Part shown: positions 5,619 to 52,600 of the stretch, piece after piece
Position numbering within the stretch: the first letter of the stretch is position 1
Layout of the letters: each line of letters opens with the position of its first letter
Assembly (NCBI GenBank): GCA_025769875.1
Contig: JAGFNK010000103.1
Span: forward strand, 1 to 64,000
Length of the DNA: 64,000 nt
Source of the DNA: Russula earlei
Lineage: Eukaryota; Basidiomycota; Agaricomycetes; Russulales; Russulaceae
Direction: 5' to 3'
Made by a program: the position numbers and the translations under genes
Notes under the pieces: generated by a model
The model's database searches: none
What the model was told of the DNA's origin: nothing
What the model saw: only the letters and a program-made list of their open reading frames with translations

Positions 5619-6579
5619 TGTCATGAACCATTCCCCGGAGAGGGCCCTTGAAGGACCCTTCCTTATAGGAGGAAACCCAGCCTCTATGGTGTCACCCTGT
5701 TCACACGAGCAAAAGGGGTGAGTAGAGGTGTCCACAATATCGCGCGCGCATTGTTGCGCGAGCGATTCTCGGCACAATCGACATACAGCAAGCCCCACTT
5801 TAAGGCAACCCTTCTAGCAACTAAAGACAGTATTAGGGCCTTCCTAAGGACCCTTTGGAACGACCCTAGAAACTCTACAATAGGTACTAACCTAGTATCA
5901 AAGGCCCTACAACGCGTTATTAGACCAACTCTAATAACTATAGAACAAACTATAAGGCAACACTAAGGACCGTAATAGAACTATTAGGGTCGACTCTAAG
6001 GACCCTAATAGAACTATATAAGGGCCTTATAAAATAACACTATTCCCTAGCCAAACTACAAGTCCTCAAAAGACCGGCCCTAAACTAACTAACAGGAAAT
6101 GGATCAGGTGCTTGCACGTGCACTAAAGCAGTAAACATGTGGACAATGGAAGCTCTTACTCATCAAGAGGAGCTTCTTACTCAGCAGCTTACTGAGCATG
6201 ATGGAGCATGCTCAGTAAGCGTCCTCCGACTTCTTACTCATCACTCTATTATGCTTGATAACAAGGTTATGACTTGTCCCCTATTTAGCAGTTCTCTTGT
6301 AGTATATAAGCGTTCAATAAAGTAGCGGACAGTCCTCAGACTGTCCATTTGTTTACGGCACTCTCCACTCCTGGGATACTCCTTTAAGGACCATCCCCTT
6401 GTGACTATCCTGGCCTCTTCCCTGCGTGATTGTTCTACTCTCACAGTGACAATACCTCTCTGGTATTTGTTGCTCCTCTGGACTCTACTCCTTGCCCACG
6501 CGGTCTTGGACGTCTATTGACTCGTCTTCGAGCTTATCCCTCGCTCTTGAACTGGATAGTTCAACAGTGAGTCTTGACA
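5619..6579 (+). mobile_element. Solo LTR, family A, copy 2
   Basis: Starts TGTCATGAACC, ends GAGTCTTGACA, and is flanked by exact 5-bp target duplications catcc (5614-5618 and 6580-6584). A TATA box (gtatataag) at about 6302 is followed by aataaa, as expected for U3/R. This copy keeps the most CpGs of the family, for example a run of CG dinucleotides near 5742-5765. With copy 1 it forms a roughly 0.9-kb inverted pair separated by 111 bp. Confidence 0.92.
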
Positions 6580-6614: not shown

Positions 6615-7106
6615 TGTCACAACTACCAGTACTTTGGACTGGACCGGCAACCGGACAAGCCTACCTGGACAAGCCTCAAATTTCCCACACGTCTCTATGA
6701 CTCACTTTGCCTCGCATGTACCATCAGTTTCCAGCGTGTTCCAGTACGATCGCCTCACCTCTGCCTCATGCATACTATTTGATATAGTAGTACTTGTCTA
6801 TATAAGCCTGTCAATTGAAGAGAGCAAGCCTTAAGCTTGTTCTCCTGTGAAATATCACTGGTTTCAGCTTCAGGACTGTAGGCTTGCAGGGAATCAAGCA
6901 AACACCCCAGAAAGACTCTCATATCTCTAAGCCTTCAAACACGGAGACTTATCATCTGAATTTCCTCTCCACGGTAGACAATTGACTCAGCATTGTTGTC
7001 ACCAAGTCCCCTGACCTTCACAAGAATCCTCATTCTTGCTCAACTCTGTGCGCACATCTCACGCATTGAAATGATTTGTCAGTGACACTGCCCCCAGTCA
7101 GTGACA
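6615..7106 (+). mobile_element. 3' LTR of the chromodomain Gypsy element (family G)
   Basis: It starts TGTCACAACTACC after a short purine-rich stretch (aacaagggtaa), contains a TATA box (ctatataagcc) near 6800, and ends with duplicated GTCAGTGACA blocks. A related sequence at 40368-40860 has both ends defined by an exact 5-bp duplication, which fixes the LTR limits here. Assignment to the Gypsy element upstream rests on order and orientation. The 5' LTR is outside the window. Confidence 0.75.
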
Positions 7107-7411
7107 ATAAAGGTAAAATATTCCAAGTGCTGAATAGGCTCTGTTGTGGCCACAAATTATATTACATAAGTAATGGCTTTAGTAGAGCACGAAAAATGTG
7201 ACAAAAAAGGTTAAATAAGGACAGTCTACTCATTCTGGCACAACTTTTAGCCTAGCCTGGCTAAAAGTTGTGCTGGAATGAGTAGACTCTCCATATTTAA
7301 CCTTTTTTGTCACATTTTTCGTGCTCTACTAAAGCCATTACTTATGTAATATAATTTGTGGCCACAACAGACCCTACTCAGCACTTGGAATATTTTACTT
7401 TTATTGTCCAC
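7101..7411. repeat. Near-perfect 311-bp palindrome (foldback MITE)
   Basis: Two arms of about 150 bp (7101-7252 and 7259-7411) are nearly exact inverted copies around a 6-bp loop; the innermost stem is cttttagcc/ggctaaaag. No coding capacity is present. A diverged relative of the right end and its flank occurs near 26800-26870, so this is a dispersed family. A transcript would form a long hairpin. Confidence 0.85.
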
Positions 7412-7497: not shown

Positions 7498-7736
7498 ATG
7501 TCTTTGGTTGCCTGTGAGATGGGTGTCATTATACACATTGCAAGAGAATCAACAATTACACAGATGACTCCAAAGCCTGAAAATTTGTGAAAATACAAAT
7601 GGGGAGGTAAATATCGGGAAAAGGGAGGGTTCCTGAAACTGACAAGGCCCAACAAGAGTGGTGGAGGAAGACATTACTGTCGTTTTCATGTGACCTTGCA
7701 CTTGCCATTTTTGGATGTCATTTCAAGTGCAAAATT

Positions 7737-8335
7737 AAAACTGCTATATCTCAACAGTTTCTCAACAGATTGCCTTGAAACTTTGACAGTAGAACCTTAG
7801 ACACCGTATCTAGGTGCAGATAAAATATGGGAGCCTAATATTCAGTTCTTGACATGTCAATTTTTGGGTGCTGACATGAGTGCAAAACTTTGAACTGCCA
7901 TATCTCAACTGTTTCTCAATCAATTTACTTGAAACTTCGACAGTGGGATCTCATGTACTGTATCTAGGTGCAGCCCAAGAGTTGGGGTCTGATTCCAAGT
8001 TCTTGAAGTTTCAACTTTTGTGTGCAATCTGAGTGTGAAATTTCAAACTGCCATATCTCAAATGTTTCTCAATAGATCACCTTGAAACTTGGACAGTAGA
8101 GCCTTATATACTGTATCTAGGTGCAACTAAAATATGGGAGCCTAATATTCAGTTCTTGAAGTTTCAATTTTTGGGTGCCAATCTGCATGCAAAATTTCAA
8201 ACTGCCATATCTCAACCATTTCTCAATGGATTGCCTTGAAACTTGGACAGTAGAACCTTGTGTACTGTATCTGGACGCAGCCAAATTATGGGTTTCACTT
8301 GTTTGAATTTGGGGTGCTGACCCCAAGCATGACAA
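7737..8335. repeat. Four-unit subterminal tandem repeat, period about 152 bp (left arm)
   Basis: The motif 'actgccatatctcaa' recurs near 7740, 7895, 8047 and 8198, each followed by a cctTGAAActt block and a 'gtaTCTaGGtGCaG' block. The mirrored set is at about 11640-12230. Subterminal repeats of this kind often serve as transposase binding sites; that role is inferred here. Confidence 0.8.
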
Positions 8336-8485
8336 AATTACATTATTGCTACAGCCCAACACATGACACAGAGGTATTCTTTTGATTACAATGCAGGTAG
8401 AAGACTGCACAACATATTGCCCATGACTGAGGACTCAGATGTCCCTGACTGATGATTGCTACCCAGGCAGGATAGATTGTGCCAA

Positions 8486-9150
8486 TCAACCCACAGCCTG
8501 TGTCCTCCCCAGTCTCATGTTCGTAGCCATGGGCTGACTGCTTCGCAGGGTGTGCAAGATCCGCAAGGTGTGCCTTGTGCATGCACAGCAACAGCTGTGT
8601 CAAGAAGGCCAGGGTGACAACGTTGTCCCTGGCACTGACCCCACTCATGGCAGCTAACGCCTGAACCCAGACTCGGGGGCAGCATCGGAGTAGTGCTCCC
8701 ACAGTGTGTAGAGTGAGAGGATCTCCTGCAATCATTGCACAACAGTGGGAAGCGACATGCACAGGCCGACTATGAAGCCAACAAAGTCCTGCTGCAGCAC
8801 AAGCGTGGGCTTTTGATGCATGCTGCCAATGTTTGTGTGCGAGGAGCAGCAGGGGAGGGGGCGTGTGCGCCACAGATTGTGCTTGGATTGCGTCGTGCAT
8901 CTTGTCATTCAGCACAAGTGTGAGGTAGATCACGGTGATGGCAATCATGTGTGGTGGGTAGAGGAGGCAGAGCTTGGAGCAGTACATGTTGTTGATGATG
9001 AACCAGGTCAAAGTTCGAAACATGCCATGTTCGGCCAGTTTTCTTTTGCAGTTTAGAGAGTGGGGGGGAGGGAGGAGTAGGAGATGATGACGTGCCATGC
9101 TGTTTGTAGGGACCCTTCCCCGAGCTCGAAGTCTTCCCTTGCTGGTGCCC
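8486..9150 (-). pseudogene. Inverted duplicate of the 3' half of cyclin C
   Basis: Minus-strand copy of 10827-11482. It shows the cyclin block LCLLYPPHMIAITVIYL, the intron-like pyrimidine stretch upstream of it, and the same frameshift before the SLYTLWEHY block. Because it shares the lesions of the plus copy, the arm was duplicated after or together with decay, or gene conversion keeps the arms equal. Confidence 0.8.
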
Positions 9151-9209
9151 ATCCGAGTTGAGCACTGCAGCATCGTCATCCTAGTCAAGGCTTTCTGCGC
9201 CAAGCTCCA

Positions 9210-11482
9210 ATGGCGACTGACTTCTGGGCAAGCTCACACAAGTAAGCTCTGTCCTCAATGCCCTATATTCTGATCCTATTCAAACCTTTCTCGTCGATGC
9301 AAACGCTGGATAGTGGATCGTGCCACACTCAAGCAAGCATTGAATCTAGAAAATTGATAGTCAGGTAACCCTGAGCATATTAATATTTGATGGATCGTAC
9401 CCCATGTGGTAGAAGATCTGAAAACAGAGCGTCATTATAAATCATCGAAGCCAGGACAATATCACTCACAGCATGGAGGTAGTCCTGACCCTGATATGCA
9501 TCAGGTAGATGACCATCTGGGGTCACATCCTTGGCAAAGCCATCGATGCAACTGGGACACCACAGGATCTTAGGGCCACCCATTTCCTGCTTGGAGATGA
9601 GCTATCTCAATCCACCAGTAACCACCTGGATGGCAGCAACACCTGTGAGAGTCCAAAGATTACTGTAGCTAATCCACTCCATTATAACACAAGTGATTGG
9701 AAGACCATTGTTAGCATTCAGGGGTGAAATGCATGGTGGCATAGTTGCTATTCTCATGTATGTATCAGACATGACACAGATACATGGTTAGGACTGCACC
9801 CTGCCACCAGTCTTAGTTTCATTATCATAGGTGCCAGCACTGTGCCACACGAGACGGAGGAGGACAGGACCAAAACAGCCATCTGGTTGAAATTAATGAG
9901 CGAGGGGGTGGTGTATAAAGATATGGATATGTGGCAAGAAGTACCATCATAATCGCCAGCATTGTCAAATTTTTGCGCAATTTTGTTATACACCTGTAAG
10001 CAGAGCTTGAGTCCCAAGATTTGTCATAGACTGGCAACAAGATGGTCACTTTCTGATAATTCACTTGTGTTGGGGTGAATTTAAGAGCAGACTTGGCTGA
10101 CTGCATACCAGACTTCACAGTAGTCGCAGCAGTGTCCGAGGAACTGTATACATGATAGCTGAGGCCTCCTATGAGAGTGAGACCAACAGTTGCATAGAGG
10201 GCAGTATTTGAGGACTCTTGAGGGGTCTCTGTGGAGTATTTTCAAAAGGAGGAATGGAAAGAGGGAGCATGGACCTTCAATATGTCAAGTCCGCAGAGTT
10301 CCCACACATTTTCCATTTCAGCAGCTTATGCCATGCCTTCCCCCCCACCAGTCATCATGATGTTAGGGTTAGGCAAACACTTGACACTGTGTCAGCGTGT
10401 GATCACCACCACCATGGCCTTTTTCAGGTGGTTCTACATCAAAAACTTGTGCTGCTGAGACGGACCCCTTCATGGTGATAGCTGCATGCTGCTACATTGC
10501 CACAAAGACAGAAGAATCTCCTGTCCATATCAAGAATATTGTCTCCAAATCGTGCCTCATGTTCAGCCATACATAGTGGGTTTTTAGATTGACTTCATTT
10601 TGCCAACCAATCATCACTCAATCATGTGACCAGAGGAGGTGTATGGAATCAAGAACTGCATCTCAGACAACTCGAAGCTTGAATCTCATGAGTGACCTTG
10701 AATGTGCCTCATCATGCTCCATCCATACTGCACCCTCCTCACTTTATGAGGGAGAGAAGTGGCACACACAGTCGTCTCTGAAGCTGGAGAGGTTGGGATT
10801 GGTATCAACAACAGCCCATGATACTGGGGCACCAGCAAGGGAAGACTCGAGCTCGGGGAAGGGTCCCTACAAACAGCATGGCACGTCATCATCTCCTACT
10901 CCTCCCTCCCCCCCACTCTCTAAACTGCAAAAGAAAACTGGCCGAACATGGCATGTTTGAACTTTGACTGGTTCATCATCAACAACATGTACTGCTCCAA
11001 GCTCTGCCTCCTCTACCCACCACACATGATTGCCATCACCGTGATCTACCTCACACTTGTGCTGAATGACAAGAGGCACGACGCAATCCAAGCACAATCT
11101 GTGGCGCACACGCCCCCTCCCCGCTGCTCCTCGCACACAAACATTGGCAGCATGCACCAAAAGCCCACGCTTGTGCTGCAGCAGGACTTTGTTGGCTTCA
11201 TAGTCGGCCTGTGCATGTCGCTTCCCACTGTTGTGATGATTGCAGGAGATCCTCTCACTCTACACACTGTGGGAGCACTACTCCGATGCTGCCCCCGAGT
11301 CTGGGTTCAGCGTTAGCGCCATGAGTGGGGTCAGTGCCAGGGACAACGTTGTCACCCTGGCCTTCTTGACACAGCTGTTGCTGTGCATGCACAAGGCACA
11401 CCTTGCGGATCTTGCACACCCTGCAAGCAGTCAGCCCATGGCTACGAACATGAGACTGGGGAGGACACAGGCTGTGGGTTGA
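9210..11482 (+). pseudogene. SSN8: Captured, decayed cyclin C gene (SSN8/srb11-like)
   Basis: The Mediator kinase-module cyclin can be followed in order. MATDFWASSH is at 9210, then RWIVDRATLKQAL after an intron whose acceptor reads aa instead of ag. LCQRVITTTMAFF and MVIAACCYIATKTEESPVH lie at about 10385-10540, FIINNMYCSKLCLLYPPH at about 10970, DFVGFIVGLCMSLPTV at about 11190, SLYTLWEHY at about 11250, and the C-terminus ends in TGA at 11480. Introns are kept, so the copy came from DNA and not from mRNA. Lesions are in-frame stops, a broken acceptor and a base missing near 11243. A cytochrome c peroxidase fragment interrupts it at about 9376-10260. An active copy presumably lies elsewhere. 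Confidence 0.85.
9376..10260 (-). pseudogene. CCP1: Captured antisense fragment of cytochrome c peroxidase
   Basis: Read on the minus strand: a mitochondrial N-terminal segment with a hydrophobic stretch (TVGLTLIGGLSYHVYSS), then FTPTQVNYQK, VYNKIAQKFDNAGDYDG, and the distal haem-pocket motif [16 protein letters not shown] with catalytic Arg, Trp and His. NLWTLTGVAA, MGGPKI and the start of IFYHMGYD follow. At least three introns of normal size with GT and AG ends remain. The C-terminal half with the proximal His is absent, and several stops are present. The fragment lies inside and antisense to the cyclin C copy, so two host loci were joined in one element. Confidence 0.83.
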
Positions 11483-12292
11483 TTGGCACAATCTATCCTG
11501 CCTGGGTAGCAATCATCAGTCAGGGACATCTGAGTCCTCAGTCATGGGCAATATGTTGTGCAGTCTTCTACCTGCATTGTAATCAAAAGAATACCTCTGT
11601 GTCATGTGTTGGGCTGTAGCAATAATGTAATTTTGTCATGCTTGGGGTCAGCACCCCAAATTCAAACAAGTGAAACCCATAATTTGGCTGCGTCCAGATA
11701 CAGTACACAAGGTTCTACTGTCCAAGTTTCAAGGCAATCCATTGAGAAATGGTTGAGATATGGCAGTTTGAAATTTTGCATGCAGATTGGCACCCAAAAA
11801 TTGAAACTTCAAGAACTGAATATTAGGCTCCCATATTTTAGTTGCACCTAGATACAGTATATAAGGCTCTACTGTCCAAGTTTCAAGGTGATCTATTGAG
11901 AAACATTTGAGATATGGCAGTTTGAAATTTCACACTCAGATTGCACACAAAAGTTGAAACTTCAAGAACTTGGAATCAGACCCCAACTCTTGGGCTGCAC
12001 CTAGATATAGTACATGAGATCCCACTGTCGAAGTTTCAAGTGAATTGATTGAGAAACAGTTGAGATATGGCAGTTCAAAGTTTTGCACTCATGTCAGCAC
12101 CCAAAAATTGACATGTCAAGAACTGAATATTAGGCTCCCATATTGTATCTGCACCTAGATACGGTGTCTAAGGTTCTACTGTCAAAGTTTCAAGGCAATC
12201 TGTTGAGAAACTGTTGAGATATAGCAGTTTTAATTTTGCACTTGAAATGACATCCAAAAATGGCAAGTGCAAGGTCACGTGAAAACGACAGT
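10827..12292. repeat. Right inverted arm of the foldback element
   Basis: Inverted copy of 7676-9150. Its inner part is the continuous 3' portion of the cyclin C copy; its outer part (about 11640-12230) holds the mirrored four-unit 152-bp tandem repeat. Confidence 0.88.
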
Positions 12293-12300
12293 AAGACATT

Positions 12301-25985: not shown

Positions 25986-26852
25986 TTGCTCACAAGGCTG
26001 TCCAGAGTAAGTTTTCAGTACATTGTCACACAGTGTCCTGCATACTTTTCTCTGTTGTAGCTAGCTCAACTCAGGGGGTATATTAGATGATTGTATTCTG
26101 TCTTCTAAGGCTTGCATTTGGCTAAGTATCTAGGCTGAGACTTTCTTGTTGTAGTTTGGATTCATATGAACTGGTTGCACATCCAATTCCTTTTGATTTT
26201 CTGTGACAAGGGCATCAGACATCCACAGCCAGTCACCTTCAACACAGACTTGGTTCTTAGTGAGAAGATACAAACAAGATTTAATTATAAGCATGAAAAA
26301 TGACGGCTGACTACATTATTTGGCTCAAGTAAAATTGTAATAAAATGTAAAGCCCAGATCTTCACATTGAGTTTAATCTGTGTGGTCAGTCTCTGTCATT
26401 GGGGCAATTGATCCCCATTGGGTGCAATTGATCCTCATCAGCTGATTATTGCCATGTAATGAGTAGACCTTTCTTATTTAAAATTTGGTGTCATATTTGT
26501 GGACGCACTTTATGTCCAATATAAATCCATGTATTAACATATGCCATTGTGTTTAGTGTATCCAAGTCTGCTAAGGCTAAATTGATCAGGTGAATAAAGT
26601 GTATATAATCCCACTGGTGATTCAGGGCAACTCATGTTGCATCTTAGGTTACATAACTTGGGAACTGAGTTGCCCTCTCTTAAGCATTTGACTAATTTGG
26701 GTGGACATATTTACAATAATGCAATGCATGAGGAGAGGGCAACAAATCAATCAATTGTTTTAAAATAATTTGTAATCTGAGCTAAGTCAATTCAGTGGTC
26801 AATATATTTCACCTTTATTGACCACTGAGTTGAGTTTTAGTGTGGACTGGAC
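25986..26852. other. AT-rich spacer with MITE remnants
   Basis: Segments near 26455-26560 and 26790-26870 resemble one arm and the right flank of the 7101-7411 palindrome (atgagtagac, ttattgaccactgagttga). No gene recognised. Confidence 0.4.
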
Positions 26853-37509: not shown

Positions 37510-38473
37510 TGTCATGAACCATTCTCTGGAGAGGGCCCTTGAAGGACCCTTCCTTATAGGAGGAAACCCAGCCTCTATGGTGTCACCCTGTTCACACGAG
37601 CAAAAGGGGTGAGTAGAGGTGTCCACAATATCATGCGCGCATTGTTGCGCGAGCAATTCTTGGCACAATCGACATACAACAAGCCCCACTTAAGGGCAAC
37701 CCTTCTAGCATTAAAGGACAGTACTAGGGCCTTCCTAAGGACCCTTTAGAACGACCCTAAGTGCTCTACAATAGACACTAACCTAGTATCAAAGGCCCTA
37801 CAACGTGTTATTAGACTAACCCTAATAACTATAGAACGAACTATAAGGTGATACTAGGGACCTTAATAGAAACATTAGGGTCGACTTTAAGGACCCTAAT
37901 AGAACTATATAAGGGGCCTTATAGAATAACACTATTCCCCGAACCAGACTACAAGTCCTCAAATGACCGGCCCTAAACTAACTAACAAGAAATGAATCAG
38001 GTGCTTGCACATGTACTAAAGCAGTGAACACGTGGACAGTGAAGGCTCTTACTCATCAAGAGAAGCCTTCTTACTCAGCAGCTTACTGAGCATGACTGAG
38101 CATGCTCAGTAAGCATACTCCGGCTTCTTACTCATCACTCTATTGTGCTTGATAACAAGGTTATGACTTGTTCCCTATTTAGCAGTTCTCTTGTAGTATA
38201 TAAGCACTCAATAAAGTAGCGGACAGTCCTCAGACTGTCCATTTGTTTACGGCACTCTCCATTCCTGGGATACTCCTTTAAGGACCATCCCCTTGTGACT
38301 ATCCTGGCCTCCTCTCCGCGTGACTGCTCAACTCTCACAGTGACAGTACCTCTCTGGTATTTGTTACTACTCTGGACTCTACTTCTTGCCCACGCCGTCT
38401 TGGACGTCTATCGACTCGTCTCTGAGCTTACCCCTCGCTCTTGAACTGGATAGTTCAACAGTGAGTCTTGACA
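37510..38473 (+). mobile_element. Solo LTR, family A, copy 3
   Basis: TGTCATGAACC...GAGTCTTGACA with exact gcaag duplications (37505-37509 and 38474-38478). It splits the RT region of Copia-2. CpG content is intermediate between copies 2 and 4. Confidence 0.93.
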
Positions 38474-47839: not shown

Positions 47840-48481
47840 TTGTATTAGTTAATCAAATTATTGTTCATCACGCCTGTGACTCCTGTCACCCCTGGAAAAT
47901 ACCAAAATCTGAGTTCAAGTTCAAGATTCGAGAATTCTTGGTTGGTAAATGGGGCCTAAGGACCTTAATAGAAGTATTAGGGTCGACTCTAAGGACCCTA
48001 ATAGAACTATATAAGGGGCCTTATGGACAACTCTATTCCCTGAACCAAACTACAAATCCTCAGATGACCAGCCCTAAACTAACCAACAGTAAAGGGATCA
48101 GGTGCTTTGCACAAGTACTAAGCAATAAACACATGGACAACTAAAGGCTCTTACTCATCAAAGGAGTCTTCTTACTCAGCAGCTTACTGAGCATGACTGA
48201 GCATGCTCAGTAAGCATACTCCGACTTCTTACTCATCCAACAAGTGTGCTTGATAACAAGGTTATCACTTGTTCCCTATTTAGCAGTTCCCTTGTAGTAT
48301 ATAAGCACTCAATAAAGTAGCAGACAGTCTTCAGACTGTCCATTTGATTATGGTACTCTATTAGCAGGGGTACTTCTTTAGGATTGCCCTATCTAGCACA
48401 CTCTGGCTCTCTCTTTCCATGATCACCTCTCACAACCCATACCAGTTCCTCTCTGGTACTTGTTACTTGTTTGGACTGTGC

Positions 48482-49689: not shown

Positions 49690-52600
49690 CCACATTCAGG
49701 GGTAGAACGTTAGTCCTATCTGCTCCCTGAATTTGAAGAACTTGACTTGACCAAGGTTCTTGGTGAACATGTCAGCTGGGTTGTTAGCCCCTTCAATAAA
49801 GAATAGCTCCACCTGTTTGTTTTGTATGACTTCATGAATGAAGTGATAGCACAAATCAATGTGTTTGATGTGCTTCTCTTGCACAGGGTTGGAGGCTAAG
49901 AATATTGAGCCTTGATTATCACCAAACAGTGGGATGGGAGCAAGATTGATGCCAAGTTCTGTTAGTAAGGATTTAATCCAACCAACTGTCTGCTCGTGTC
50001 AGAGAGCAACATGTACTCAGCTTCTGTGGAGGAGAGTGTGACTGTTTTCTGCGCTCATGAGTTCCACAAAAATATTGCTTGAGCCAGGTTCACCATATAG
50101 CCTGTAGTGGACTTCCAATTAGTCGGATCAGAAGCCCAGTCAGAGTTGGCATATGCCATTAGGCCGCCATTAGATGGTCCATCATAGACCAAGGCATAAT
50201 CAGCAGTTCCCAAGAGGTATCGGCAAATATAGAATGCACAATTTAAATGGTCCTCTGAGGGATTGGCAGCATGTTGCAACAACTTAGTGACCGCAAAGGC
50301 TATGTCTGGATGCATTCCAAGCATTATGTATAGGAGTGATCCTATAACTTGCTGGAATTTTGACCACAAGGCTGGGTCAGCAGCAGAAGTGTTGGGAGAG
50401 GGGTGATAGCCCTCTGGTAGTGGAGTAGGAGCAGGGTTTGCATTAAGCAAGTCAAAATGCTGCAGCACTTTCCTTAGATATTCAGTCTGGTCCAGATGTA
50501 TCTGGCCAGACTTGCGTTGAATGTGCATGCATTGAAATTCTTGGGCATCGCCCAGATCTCAACATTCCCAGAGCTTCATGAAGTCGCTCCTTTGTTTTAT
50601 TGATTTGTTTTTTGTCTGCTCCAAAGAAGAGCACATCATCAACATAGACGATGGCTATGATGCTCTTGTCTTTACTAACAAAGAGCCCAGAGTCAGACAT
50701 AAGGCGAATAAGGCCAAGCGAGGCCATGGACTTGTCAAGGGCTTTCCACCATGCGAGTGCCGCTTGCTTGAGTCCATATATTGCGCGTTTAAGGCGCATG
50801 ACTTTACACTCTTGGCCTTTTATTTGAAGCCCTCAGGCTGCTCCATATAGAGCTCTTCATTGAGCTCACCATAGAGAAAGGCAGTCTTGATGTCTAGTCC
50901 ACTAATGTGCCAGTTTTTAAGCACTGCAAGCACAATCATCAGGTGGACTGTCTCAAACTGTACCATGGGTGAGAATATTTCATCATAGTCAATGCCTTCT
51001 ACTTGGGAGAAGCCTTTGGTGACTAGTCTGGCTTTTTTATGACCATCAGACTTAAGGTTGAATACCCATCTATTTTTGATTATTTTGCAATCCTTGGGAG
51101 GATCGACTAGTTTGAAGACTTTGTGTCTGTGGAGGGATTCCAACCTCCTCGCAACAAGCATCTTTCCACTCCTTTTGGAGTTCACTTGGCATTCACAGAA
51201 TGTACCTAAAGGTCCATTCGCGAATCTTTTGTTAAGATTCTCTTGTTCTCCGACTGTCATCTGTTTTTGTTGACTCATCTGTGATTACTCATATGTCTGC
51301 TTATTGATCTGGCTTAGTGGTTGCTTACTGATTGCTTACTGATCCTGTCTGGCTTAGTGATTGCTTACTCCTGATCAGTAAGAGCTTACTCACTGCTTAT
51401 TGATTCATGACTGATACTAGGAAAGAATGACTCACGTGAGTCATTTCTAACATTCTTAATTGCGCTTTTCTGTATTTGGATACTACTGGTTCTCAGCTAT
51501 GTGCACCCTGAGTTTCGTACGAATCGGATCAGCAGTTATCGAGATATCGTATAAATAGTCTGTGGTACCAAGAAGTCGAGCCTTAGCTCGACTTACACTT
51601 TTTTAACAAGACAATCATCTTGTCTACCAAATCTCAAAAACATTGTAGTGCAGACTCTAACTGAAAGAGGCCCCTTCTCTTTTCTACATCCAATCTTCCT
51701 GAGATAATATCAAAGGGTTCAAGTCTAGTGCTTGAACTATATCAAGCAACTCTTTCACTAAAGAGTCAGTACTAAGATCTCATGGATCTTAACATCTTTG
51801 CAGTATTGGGTGCTTCAAACCTTAGTGGAAACTGCTTGGGGCAAGCAGATAGTCAGAAATTTTACTCCCCCTTCCCTTGCAAGATGTAGAAGGTCTTCTA
51901 CCTCATCCTCAGAGGCTTGGGCGGTTGATCATCAAAGGAGGACAGGAGGGTAGGGGCCTGGTGTGGCCGTCCTGATGTACTAGCCTCACTGGAGCTACCG
52001 GGTTGGTTTTCTGTCTTGTTCCTCCATTTGCATGTGTGACAAATGTTTTCCACTTCTGTGGGGTTGTCTGCATTCACCATAGATGTTGCCAGGATGGTAG
52101 GTACACTTCCTCAACATGCTGAGAAACTTCGAAAGAGGTATAGGCTCTTAATGGGAGGAGGGAACAGTGTAGGAGGGATGAGGCATTGCTCACGATTCCT
52201 CTTCCTTCTGGTGCCTGTATAGGCTGCTCATCATCCTCACTTTTAGGCATAGGGAATGGGTCGTCAACACCAGGAATGGTGTCTTTGACAGGTTGTTGCA
52301 GTAGTTCCTCACATGGTTCATTAATCCGCATGGTACCTTTAGTGCACACTTTGTCGCATTTGGGGTACAGGGTCTCATCATAGAGGGTGGAAGCATTAGT
52401 GTAAAGCATGTTATTAGGGAGCCTCATAAAGAGTGAGGCTTTGATCCCCTCAGTGTGACCAAGGTAGATCATTAGTTTGCTCTTAGGCGAAAGCTTATTG
52501 ACTCGATGCTTTTCTGGTATGTGCACATATGCACCACAACCAAATACTCTGAGGTGTGAAATATCAGGGACCTCGTTCTTTAGGACTTCATAGGGTGTAC

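Follow-up and report, generated by a model that had tools for sequence, protein, structure and literature searches.

Introduction

Transposons whose terminal inverted repeats (TIRs) enclose copies of host sequence have been described in animals as Pack-TIRs (PMC8277862). In that survey, TcMariner is one of the two commonest superfamilies (115 of 370), breakpoints show short microhomology for which template switching is proposed, and multi-copy cases such as Ssk-FB4, an FB element, are ascribed to transposition after capture. In fungi, a hAT element of Pseudocercospora fijiensis captured and multiplied a housekeeping gene, histone H3, whose copies decayed by C-to-T type mutation; it is reported with a 20-bp TIR, an 8-bp target duplication, an intronless captured copy and CpA-type decay (PMC6710886). 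Fungal Tc1-mariner elements, such as those of Sclerotinia sclerotiorum, encode a DDE transposase, duplicate a TA target and are given as 1.8–2.3 kb long with TIRs of 36–70 bp (PMC4188875). Foldback elements such as Tetris of Drosophila have long TIRs with sub-repeats around a non-coding middle; Tetris makes 8–10-bp duplications, is placed with Mutator like most foldbacks (exceptions are acknowledged), and shows signs of TIR-repeat homogenization in two of its three complete copies (PMC4079207). Here we analyze a gene-carrying foldback element at positions 7676–12292 of a 64,000-nucleotide stretch of the genome of the fungus Russula earlei (assembly GCA_025769875.1, contig JAGFNK010000103.1, positions 1 to 64,000; hereafter the window).

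The element resembles animal Pack-TIRs in having TIR ends around copied host sequence, and differs from those described (PMC8277862) in its fungal host, in carrying a piece of one gene inside another captured gene, and in its palindromes, probably made from a gene-bearing half. Unlike the hAT element of P. fijiensis, it is most likely of Tc1/mariner type, with TIRs of more than 600 bp, a TA duplication, retained introns and CpG-type decay. Compared with the fungal Tc1-mariner elements above, its family is large (64 of 69 tip pairs span 3.2–6.6 kb), has TIRs of ~0.5 kb or more in the members compared, carries genes and targets TTAA; compared with Tetris, it duplicates TA and is assigned to Tc1/mariner. 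Within the open PMC literature, including the available sections of these four reports and of PMC4905642, we found no Tc1/mariner foldback with captured genes in fungi (Repbase and subscription journals lay outside this scope). Gene capture by fungal TIR transposons is thus known, from the hAT element with histone H3; a Tc1/mariner-type foldback family in which one captured gene lies within another and the arms undergo concerted evolution appears, against these sources, to be new.

A repeat family with shared tips

The element is real and one member of a repeat family, although its class had been misread in a preliminary description made from the sequence alone. As that description stated, it has inverted arms of about 1.47 kb with matching tips: the arms are 98.98% identical across 1477 alignment positions, and their outermost 870 nt are 100% complementary. 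Sub-repeats of ~150 bp build the outer 0.6 kb of each arm, and the two arms make up most of the 4.6-kb element, as expected of a foldback (Table 1).

The 39-bp tip matched 389 places in the genome at up to 3 mismatches, compared with none for a reversed control, and a 155-bp tip gave at least 40 scored matches of nearly full length, each with an identity of 95% or higher. The left TIR is ~87–91% identical to those of seven elements from other subfamilies (L061, the right end of L062, L064, L065, L066, L067 and L068). To pair tips, we used 309 listed by hand out of at least 389. Neighboring tips less than 12 kb apart faced each other in 69 pairs, and 10 pairs were oriented otherwise. Most of the facing pairs (64 of 69) were 3.2–6.6 kb long, with clusters near 3.6 and 3.87 kb, and the remainder 7.2–11.5 kb. 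Our set of complete elements comprises 64 of these pairs, omitting C727, whose left tip lies 42 bp from a contig end, and the wide pairs C392, C24, C18 and C264.

Table 1. Features of the element and its borders in the window
Feature	Position	Strand	Remark
Left copy of the 8-bp repeat, AAGACATT	7668..7675	.	Not the family's target duplication (1/64 elements)
Left target half-site, TTA	7674..7676	.	TA at 7675-7676 is one copy of the duplication
Left arm of palindrome	7676..9150	+	Inverted repeat with 10827-12292
Family TIR, left	7676..8300	+	Internal repeats: 284-nt copies, spacing 307, 79% alike; ~150-bp sub-units
Inverted second copy of captured cyclin C 3' part, in left arm	8384..9150	-	Aligns to L088 (8505-9150) and L090 (8384-9150)
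Captured cyclin C 5' end	9210..9337	+	9290-9339 is 96% identical to donor
Class I (cytochrome c type) peroxidase fragment with introns, within captured cyclin C	9338..10264	-	86.6% to donor L087
Remainder of captured cyclin C, introns kept, extending into right arm	10264..11584	+	L088 and L090 alignments
Right arm of palindrome	10827..12292	-	Inverted repeat with 7676-9150
Family TIR, right end	11668..12292	-	
Right target half-site, TAA	12292..12294	.	TA at 12292-12293 is the other copy of the duplication
Right copy of the 8-bp repeat, AAGACATT	12293..12300	.	Not the family's target duplication (1/64 elements)

Insertion at TA

TA adjoins both ends in all 64 complete elements and lies inside TTAA in 62 of them. 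The letter directly adjoining the element is T on the left, or A on the right, at all 128 ends; TT precedes the left tip in 63 of 64 elements, and AA follows the right end in 63 of 64. The two exceptions read CT–element–AA and TT–element–AG, corresponding to the targets CTAA and TTAG. In a smaller sample of 57 distinct flanks, TT was found at 57 of 57 and 56 of 57.

We looked for paralogous empty sites only among the retrieved locus sequences. With at most 2 mismatches in 24, such sites were found for 13 of 61 elements, compared with 2 of 362 shuffled partners, a count that leaves out the window copy and drops two copies with identical flanks. A looser match (3+3 mismatches) gave 24 of 64 elements versus 49 of 628 controls, one of the 24 being the window copy matching itself. 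Examples include L062, which sits in the TTAA of an abundant repeat, and C889, which compares with an empty counterpart in L023. Unfilled TTAA targets also occur in the window itself, near 50,445 (minus strand) for the elements of C30 and C33 and near 26,535 (minus strand) for that of C1039. An exact empty copy of the CTAA target was found, which together with the TTAG target argues that TA is the core of the target. Insertion is therefore into a single T-TA-A, with the TA doubled, as in Tc1/mariner. For the window copy, TA insertion predicts an empty allele reading GGAGGAAGACATTAAGACATTCACC, with one TTAA.

The abundant repeat occurs in the window near 5974–6270, 37865–38114 and 47967–48265, and tip-family members sit in its TTAA. 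At up to 3 mismatches, the assembly contains 1003 forward and 937 reverse copies of its GAGTCRACCCTAATA...TATATTAA stretch.

Captured host genes

Direct searches of the window were uninformative about the cargo. A Pfam search of six frames of its interior gave no cyclin or peroxidase call, a cyclin fragment gave no more than two sub-threshold hits, to TFIIB (E 0.025) and to Cyclin_N (E 0.038), and PDB searches with two decayed window pieces returned no match. We therefore established cargo identity through donor loci. The likely peroxidase donor is in C124 (L087), with a second locus in C1010 and PF00141 above cut-off; the window piece matches L087 at 86.6% over 977 positions, across introns. 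The likely cyclin C donor is in C1 (L088), with a second locus in C573, Cyclin_N above cut-off and a solved cyclin C among its best structure matches. Captured cyclin C is 81.9% identical to L088 over 10305–11463 (1192 positions, across introns) and 80.8% to L090 over 10309–11584. Further cyclin C-like loci lie in C4, C170, C317 and others. Over a shorter part, C317 and C4 match at 83% and C1 at 79%, and over the longer stretch C1 leads with 81.9% to 80.8% for C4; because the order changes with the stretch compared, the exact donor among these loci is not fixed. The preliminary description was right that the captured genes bear introns, and their retention indicates capture from DNA. Its name 'cytochrome c peroxidase' is a label for a subtype that is not settled: against solved class I peroxidases, the donor matched ascorbate peroxidases first (E 8e-18) and cytochrome c peroxidases next (E 1.5e-14), which shows class I membership.

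Several of these loci come in pairs of near-equal score (C1/C573, C124/C1010 and C4/C170), hinting at the presence of two haplotypes, or of recent duplicates, in the assembly.

The peroxidase piece interrupts cyclin C, with donor positions 3–52 before it and 54 onward after it. Read by eye, the two partners have ~2 bp in common at each peroxidase/cyclin junction, where 1–2 bp have been lost. We take cyclin C to start with the ATG at 9210 and to have its first intron from 9242, a by-eye reading of the sequence guided by the N-terminus of cyclin C. Cyclin C extends into the arms and the peroxidase is confined to the center, so that the earlier picture of gene-containing arms applies to the former only. 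No intact frame for either gene was seen in the window copy, and a six-frame Pfam scan of 8350–11620, at E up to 0.1, found no transposase domain, in line with the preliminary description. The same cyclin C and peroxidase cargo is common to five copies (C103, which is the window copy, C174, C223, C630 and C635), and both C174 and C223 lack query positions 615–679 of it. As in Pack-TIRs, host-gene fragments thus lie between TIRs with donor loci elsewhere and no transposase, and the presence of one cargo at five loci shows movement after capture.

A second cargo lineage carries acetyl-CoA synthetase. PF00501 scored above cut-off in C12 and below it in L064 and L065, and the L065 piece matches solved acetyl-CoA synthetases. 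The gene was recognized by eye in C111, C220 and C889, and in this part the alignment of C200 with C12 continues at 91%. With hundreds of tips, two kinds of cargo, likely donors and empty sites of sibling elements, the proposal of a gene-capturing, Pack-type foldback transposon is borne out.

Taking the donors as ancestral, C-to-T type changes in the peroxidase piece (9338–10264 versus L087) affect 39 of 108 CpG sites and 12 of 348 other C/G sites. The corresponding counts for cyclin C (10305–11463 versus L088) are 102 of 274 CpG sites and 21 of 438 elsewhere. This decay is ~8- to 10-fold concentrated at CpG, which suggests CpG methylation of these elements.

Palindromic copies

The acetyl-CoA synthetase lineage includes a palindrome whose parts can be traced. 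In L064, the left 2.7 kb corresponds to the acetyl-CoA synthetase half of a C889-like element in reverse. The right part runs forward through the outer 1.8 kb of the same half, interrupted by a gap, and L064 retains no match to the transposase. The window copy is organized in the same way, the cyclin C end being present on either side. Such palindromes probably formed by copying one gene-bearing half over the other. C630 was considered as an ancestor of the window copy that might lack the palindrome, and was rejected because it has both arms, although not its left tip.

Over the outer 1.4 kb, the two arms of one copy are 99.57% identical in the window (6 mismatches), 98.64% in C174 (19) and 97.56% in C223 (34), and arms of different copies are 94.2–96.8% identical (45–81 mismatches). 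L061 and L068 show the same tendency, with 95.6% and 97.3% within copies and 93.5–94.5% between them. In arms that never copied each other, left–right differences would date back at least to the palindrome and would therefore be no smaller than those between left arms of different copies; the opposite is seen, indicating that the arms of a copy evolve together. This likeness could be due to gene conversion long after insertion rather than to copying during transposition, an explanation that we hold to be quite possible, if not the one we favor. Long, closely spaced inverted repeats are known to convert each other, and the arm identities fit conversion and copying at transposition equally well, with no discrimination either way. 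Because arms are more alike within a copy than between copies, in those compared, each palindrome might act as a clock of its own insertion, much like long terminal repeats.

Transposase and superfamily

The preliminary description had proposed assigning the superfamily from an autonomous relative with the same tips. Same-tip relatives do carry a Tc1/mariner transposase gene, in decayed form. An open frame in L065 (C253) corresponds to the N-terminal part of a Tc1/mariner-like transposase, with HTH-type matches below Pfam cut-offs. A genome search with it gave 151 matches, and a protein database search found 5 relatives covering 23–71% of the query. Both tips and the transposase gene are present in C200 (5572 bp), C111 (6580), C12 (5757) and C889 (4518). 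We scanned six frames of C12 and, for C200 and the L079 portion of C111, the three forward frames. In all three elements PF13358 (DDE_3) scored 28.9–29.9 bits, above its cut-off of 28.6, although the frames are interrupted by stop codons and frameshifts; PF01498 (HTH_Tnp_Tc3_2) scored 15.5–22.9 bits, below its cut-off of 31.5. Tc1/mariner was the sole transposase type among the domains found in these stretches and frames.

To relate the gene to the tips, we hand-picked from the 151 matches 56 close rows (at least 50% identity) and 57 distant Tc1 relatives (at most 37%), leaving aside additional partial rows of those copies, rows of intermediate identity and the end of the list; a few close rows stem from one and the same copy. 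Thirty-two of the 56 close rows lie within 5.5 kb inside a listed tip, compared with 0 of 57 distant ones and a chance expectation of ~2.6%. Between C12 and C889, the transposase block is 84.8% and the acetyl-CoA synthetase half 75.6% identical, with their order kept and ends that differ by ~13%; the shared block in the same order implies that the gene was probably present before the two split. We also considered a Tc1 element nested in C12 with ends of its own and rejected it, finding no clear framing inverted repeat and only one weak 29-nt pair at 72%. From the TA duplication inside TTAA and the PF13358 remnants (with HTH matches below cut-off) in same-ended elements, the superfamily is most likely Tc1/mariner.

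A TTAA-specific enzyme of the piggyBac or Kolobok type could instead be the mover, the Tc1/mariner gene being a passenger in some copies. The target would favor this, as TTAA in 62 of 64 elements is a narrower preference than the simple TA that is usual for Tc1/mariner. However, TTAA is not duplicated, since empty sites hold a single TTAA and filled ones read TT–element–AA, and the CTAA and TTAG targets point to a TA core. Moreover, the scanned frames of C12, C200 and the C111 part yielded only Tc1/mariner-type transposase domains, and diverged subfamilies have the gene in the same order and orientation, with no clear private ends around it in C12. We consider this explanation unlikely.

The preliminary description took AAGACATT for an 8-bp target duplication, which would suit an element of Pack-MULE or hAT type, and left the superfamily open. 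The repeat is exact on both sides of the window copy, and a fungal hAT element with a captured host gene is known (PMC6710886). However, an exact direct repeat of 2–14 bp beside the A...T ends occurs in 1 of 64 complete elements, the window copy itself; the other 63, including the same-cargo copies C174 (L063) and C223, lack the 8-bp repeat. A duplication outside TT..AA was likewise rejected, as 17 of 64 elements share 1–4 letters there and 47 none, with no fixed length. Copies of the tips thus show variable gene content, as that description anticipated, without a shared duplication of the at least 8 bp that marks MULE and hAT elements, and the empty sites show insertion at a single TTAA; for the family, an 8-bp duplication is already refuted. 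Most simply, the double AAGACATT reflects chance or a repeat that already surrounded the TTAA of the window copy. A local rearrangement or segmental duplication without a transposon, which the earlier description had named as its alternative, is likewise already refuted by the 389 tips, 61 other complete elements with distinct flanks and empty sites of siblings, even though the flanks of three element copies are identical on the left as well as on the right (L111/112, L113/114 and L119/120), a sign that block duplication, or two haplotypes, is also present.

Proposed origin and significance

We regard it as very probable that the window copy is a non-autonomous Tc1/mariner-type element with TIRs of ~0.6–0.85 kb built of ~150-bp sub-repeats, which gained its genes and its palindromic form by template switching. 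A Tc1/mariner-type transposase acting in trans would have cut and pasted the element. During break repair inside it, DNA synthesis may have switched template into host genes, picking up cyclin C with the peroxidase inside and, in another lineage, acetyl-CoA synthetase. A switch between the two inverted ends could then have copied the gene-bearing half over the transposase half, yielding a palindrome, with the arms kept alike within each copy by mutual copying at or after transposition. Template switching accords with the model put forward for animal Pack-TIRs (PMC8277862).

Several observations weigh against this origin. The exact AAGACATT repeat is unexplained and, by our own estimate, a very unlikely coincidence, about 1 in 10^4–10^5 per element. 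No empty site was found for the window copy itself, whose flanks are unique in the assembly, and the A of the TA target belongs to the searched tip pattern (the outer letters do not). Every transposase copy inspected is decayed, so that movement by a Tc1/mariner enzyme is inferred from the shared ends. Two of six extended transposase loci (C220 and C241) showed the gene with a single tip in ~7.8 kb. For 24 of the 56 close rows no tip is listed in the vicinity, with a tip list that is incomplete (309 of at least 389) and some rows near contig ends. No non-palindromic relative of the window subfamily was seen. Finally, two interior classes, the ~3.87-kb class of L061, L062 and L068 and that of L066 and L067, gave no convincing domain in Pfam searches, which included L067, L061 and part of L062; their cargo is unnamed and may or may not comprise host genes.

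The family offers a natural multi-copy series for gene pick-up and palindrome formation by DNA transposons, from long transposase-bearing elements (C12, C111 and C200) through shorter ones (C889 and L065) and the gene-half palindrome L064 to palindromes with the other cargo (the window copy, C174 and C223). It adds a Tc1/mariner-type case both to the foldbacks and to gene capture in fungi.

More speculatively, the palindromes might be transcribed as hairpin RNAs whose cyclin C arms (~0.65–0.77 kb, roughly 79–84% identical to genomic genes) feed RNA silencing or methylation, making the element a trans-acting silencer of a housekeeping gene or a trigger of its methylation. We think this improbable; if true, the strong CpG decay of the cargo would be its footprint, and arm homogenization would keep the hairpin near perfect.

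Neighboring feature

Beside the element, positions 7103–7252 and 7259–7408 of the window form a near-perfect hairpin with 150-nt arms that are 95% complementary and 6 nt apart. It is perhaps another miniature transposon.

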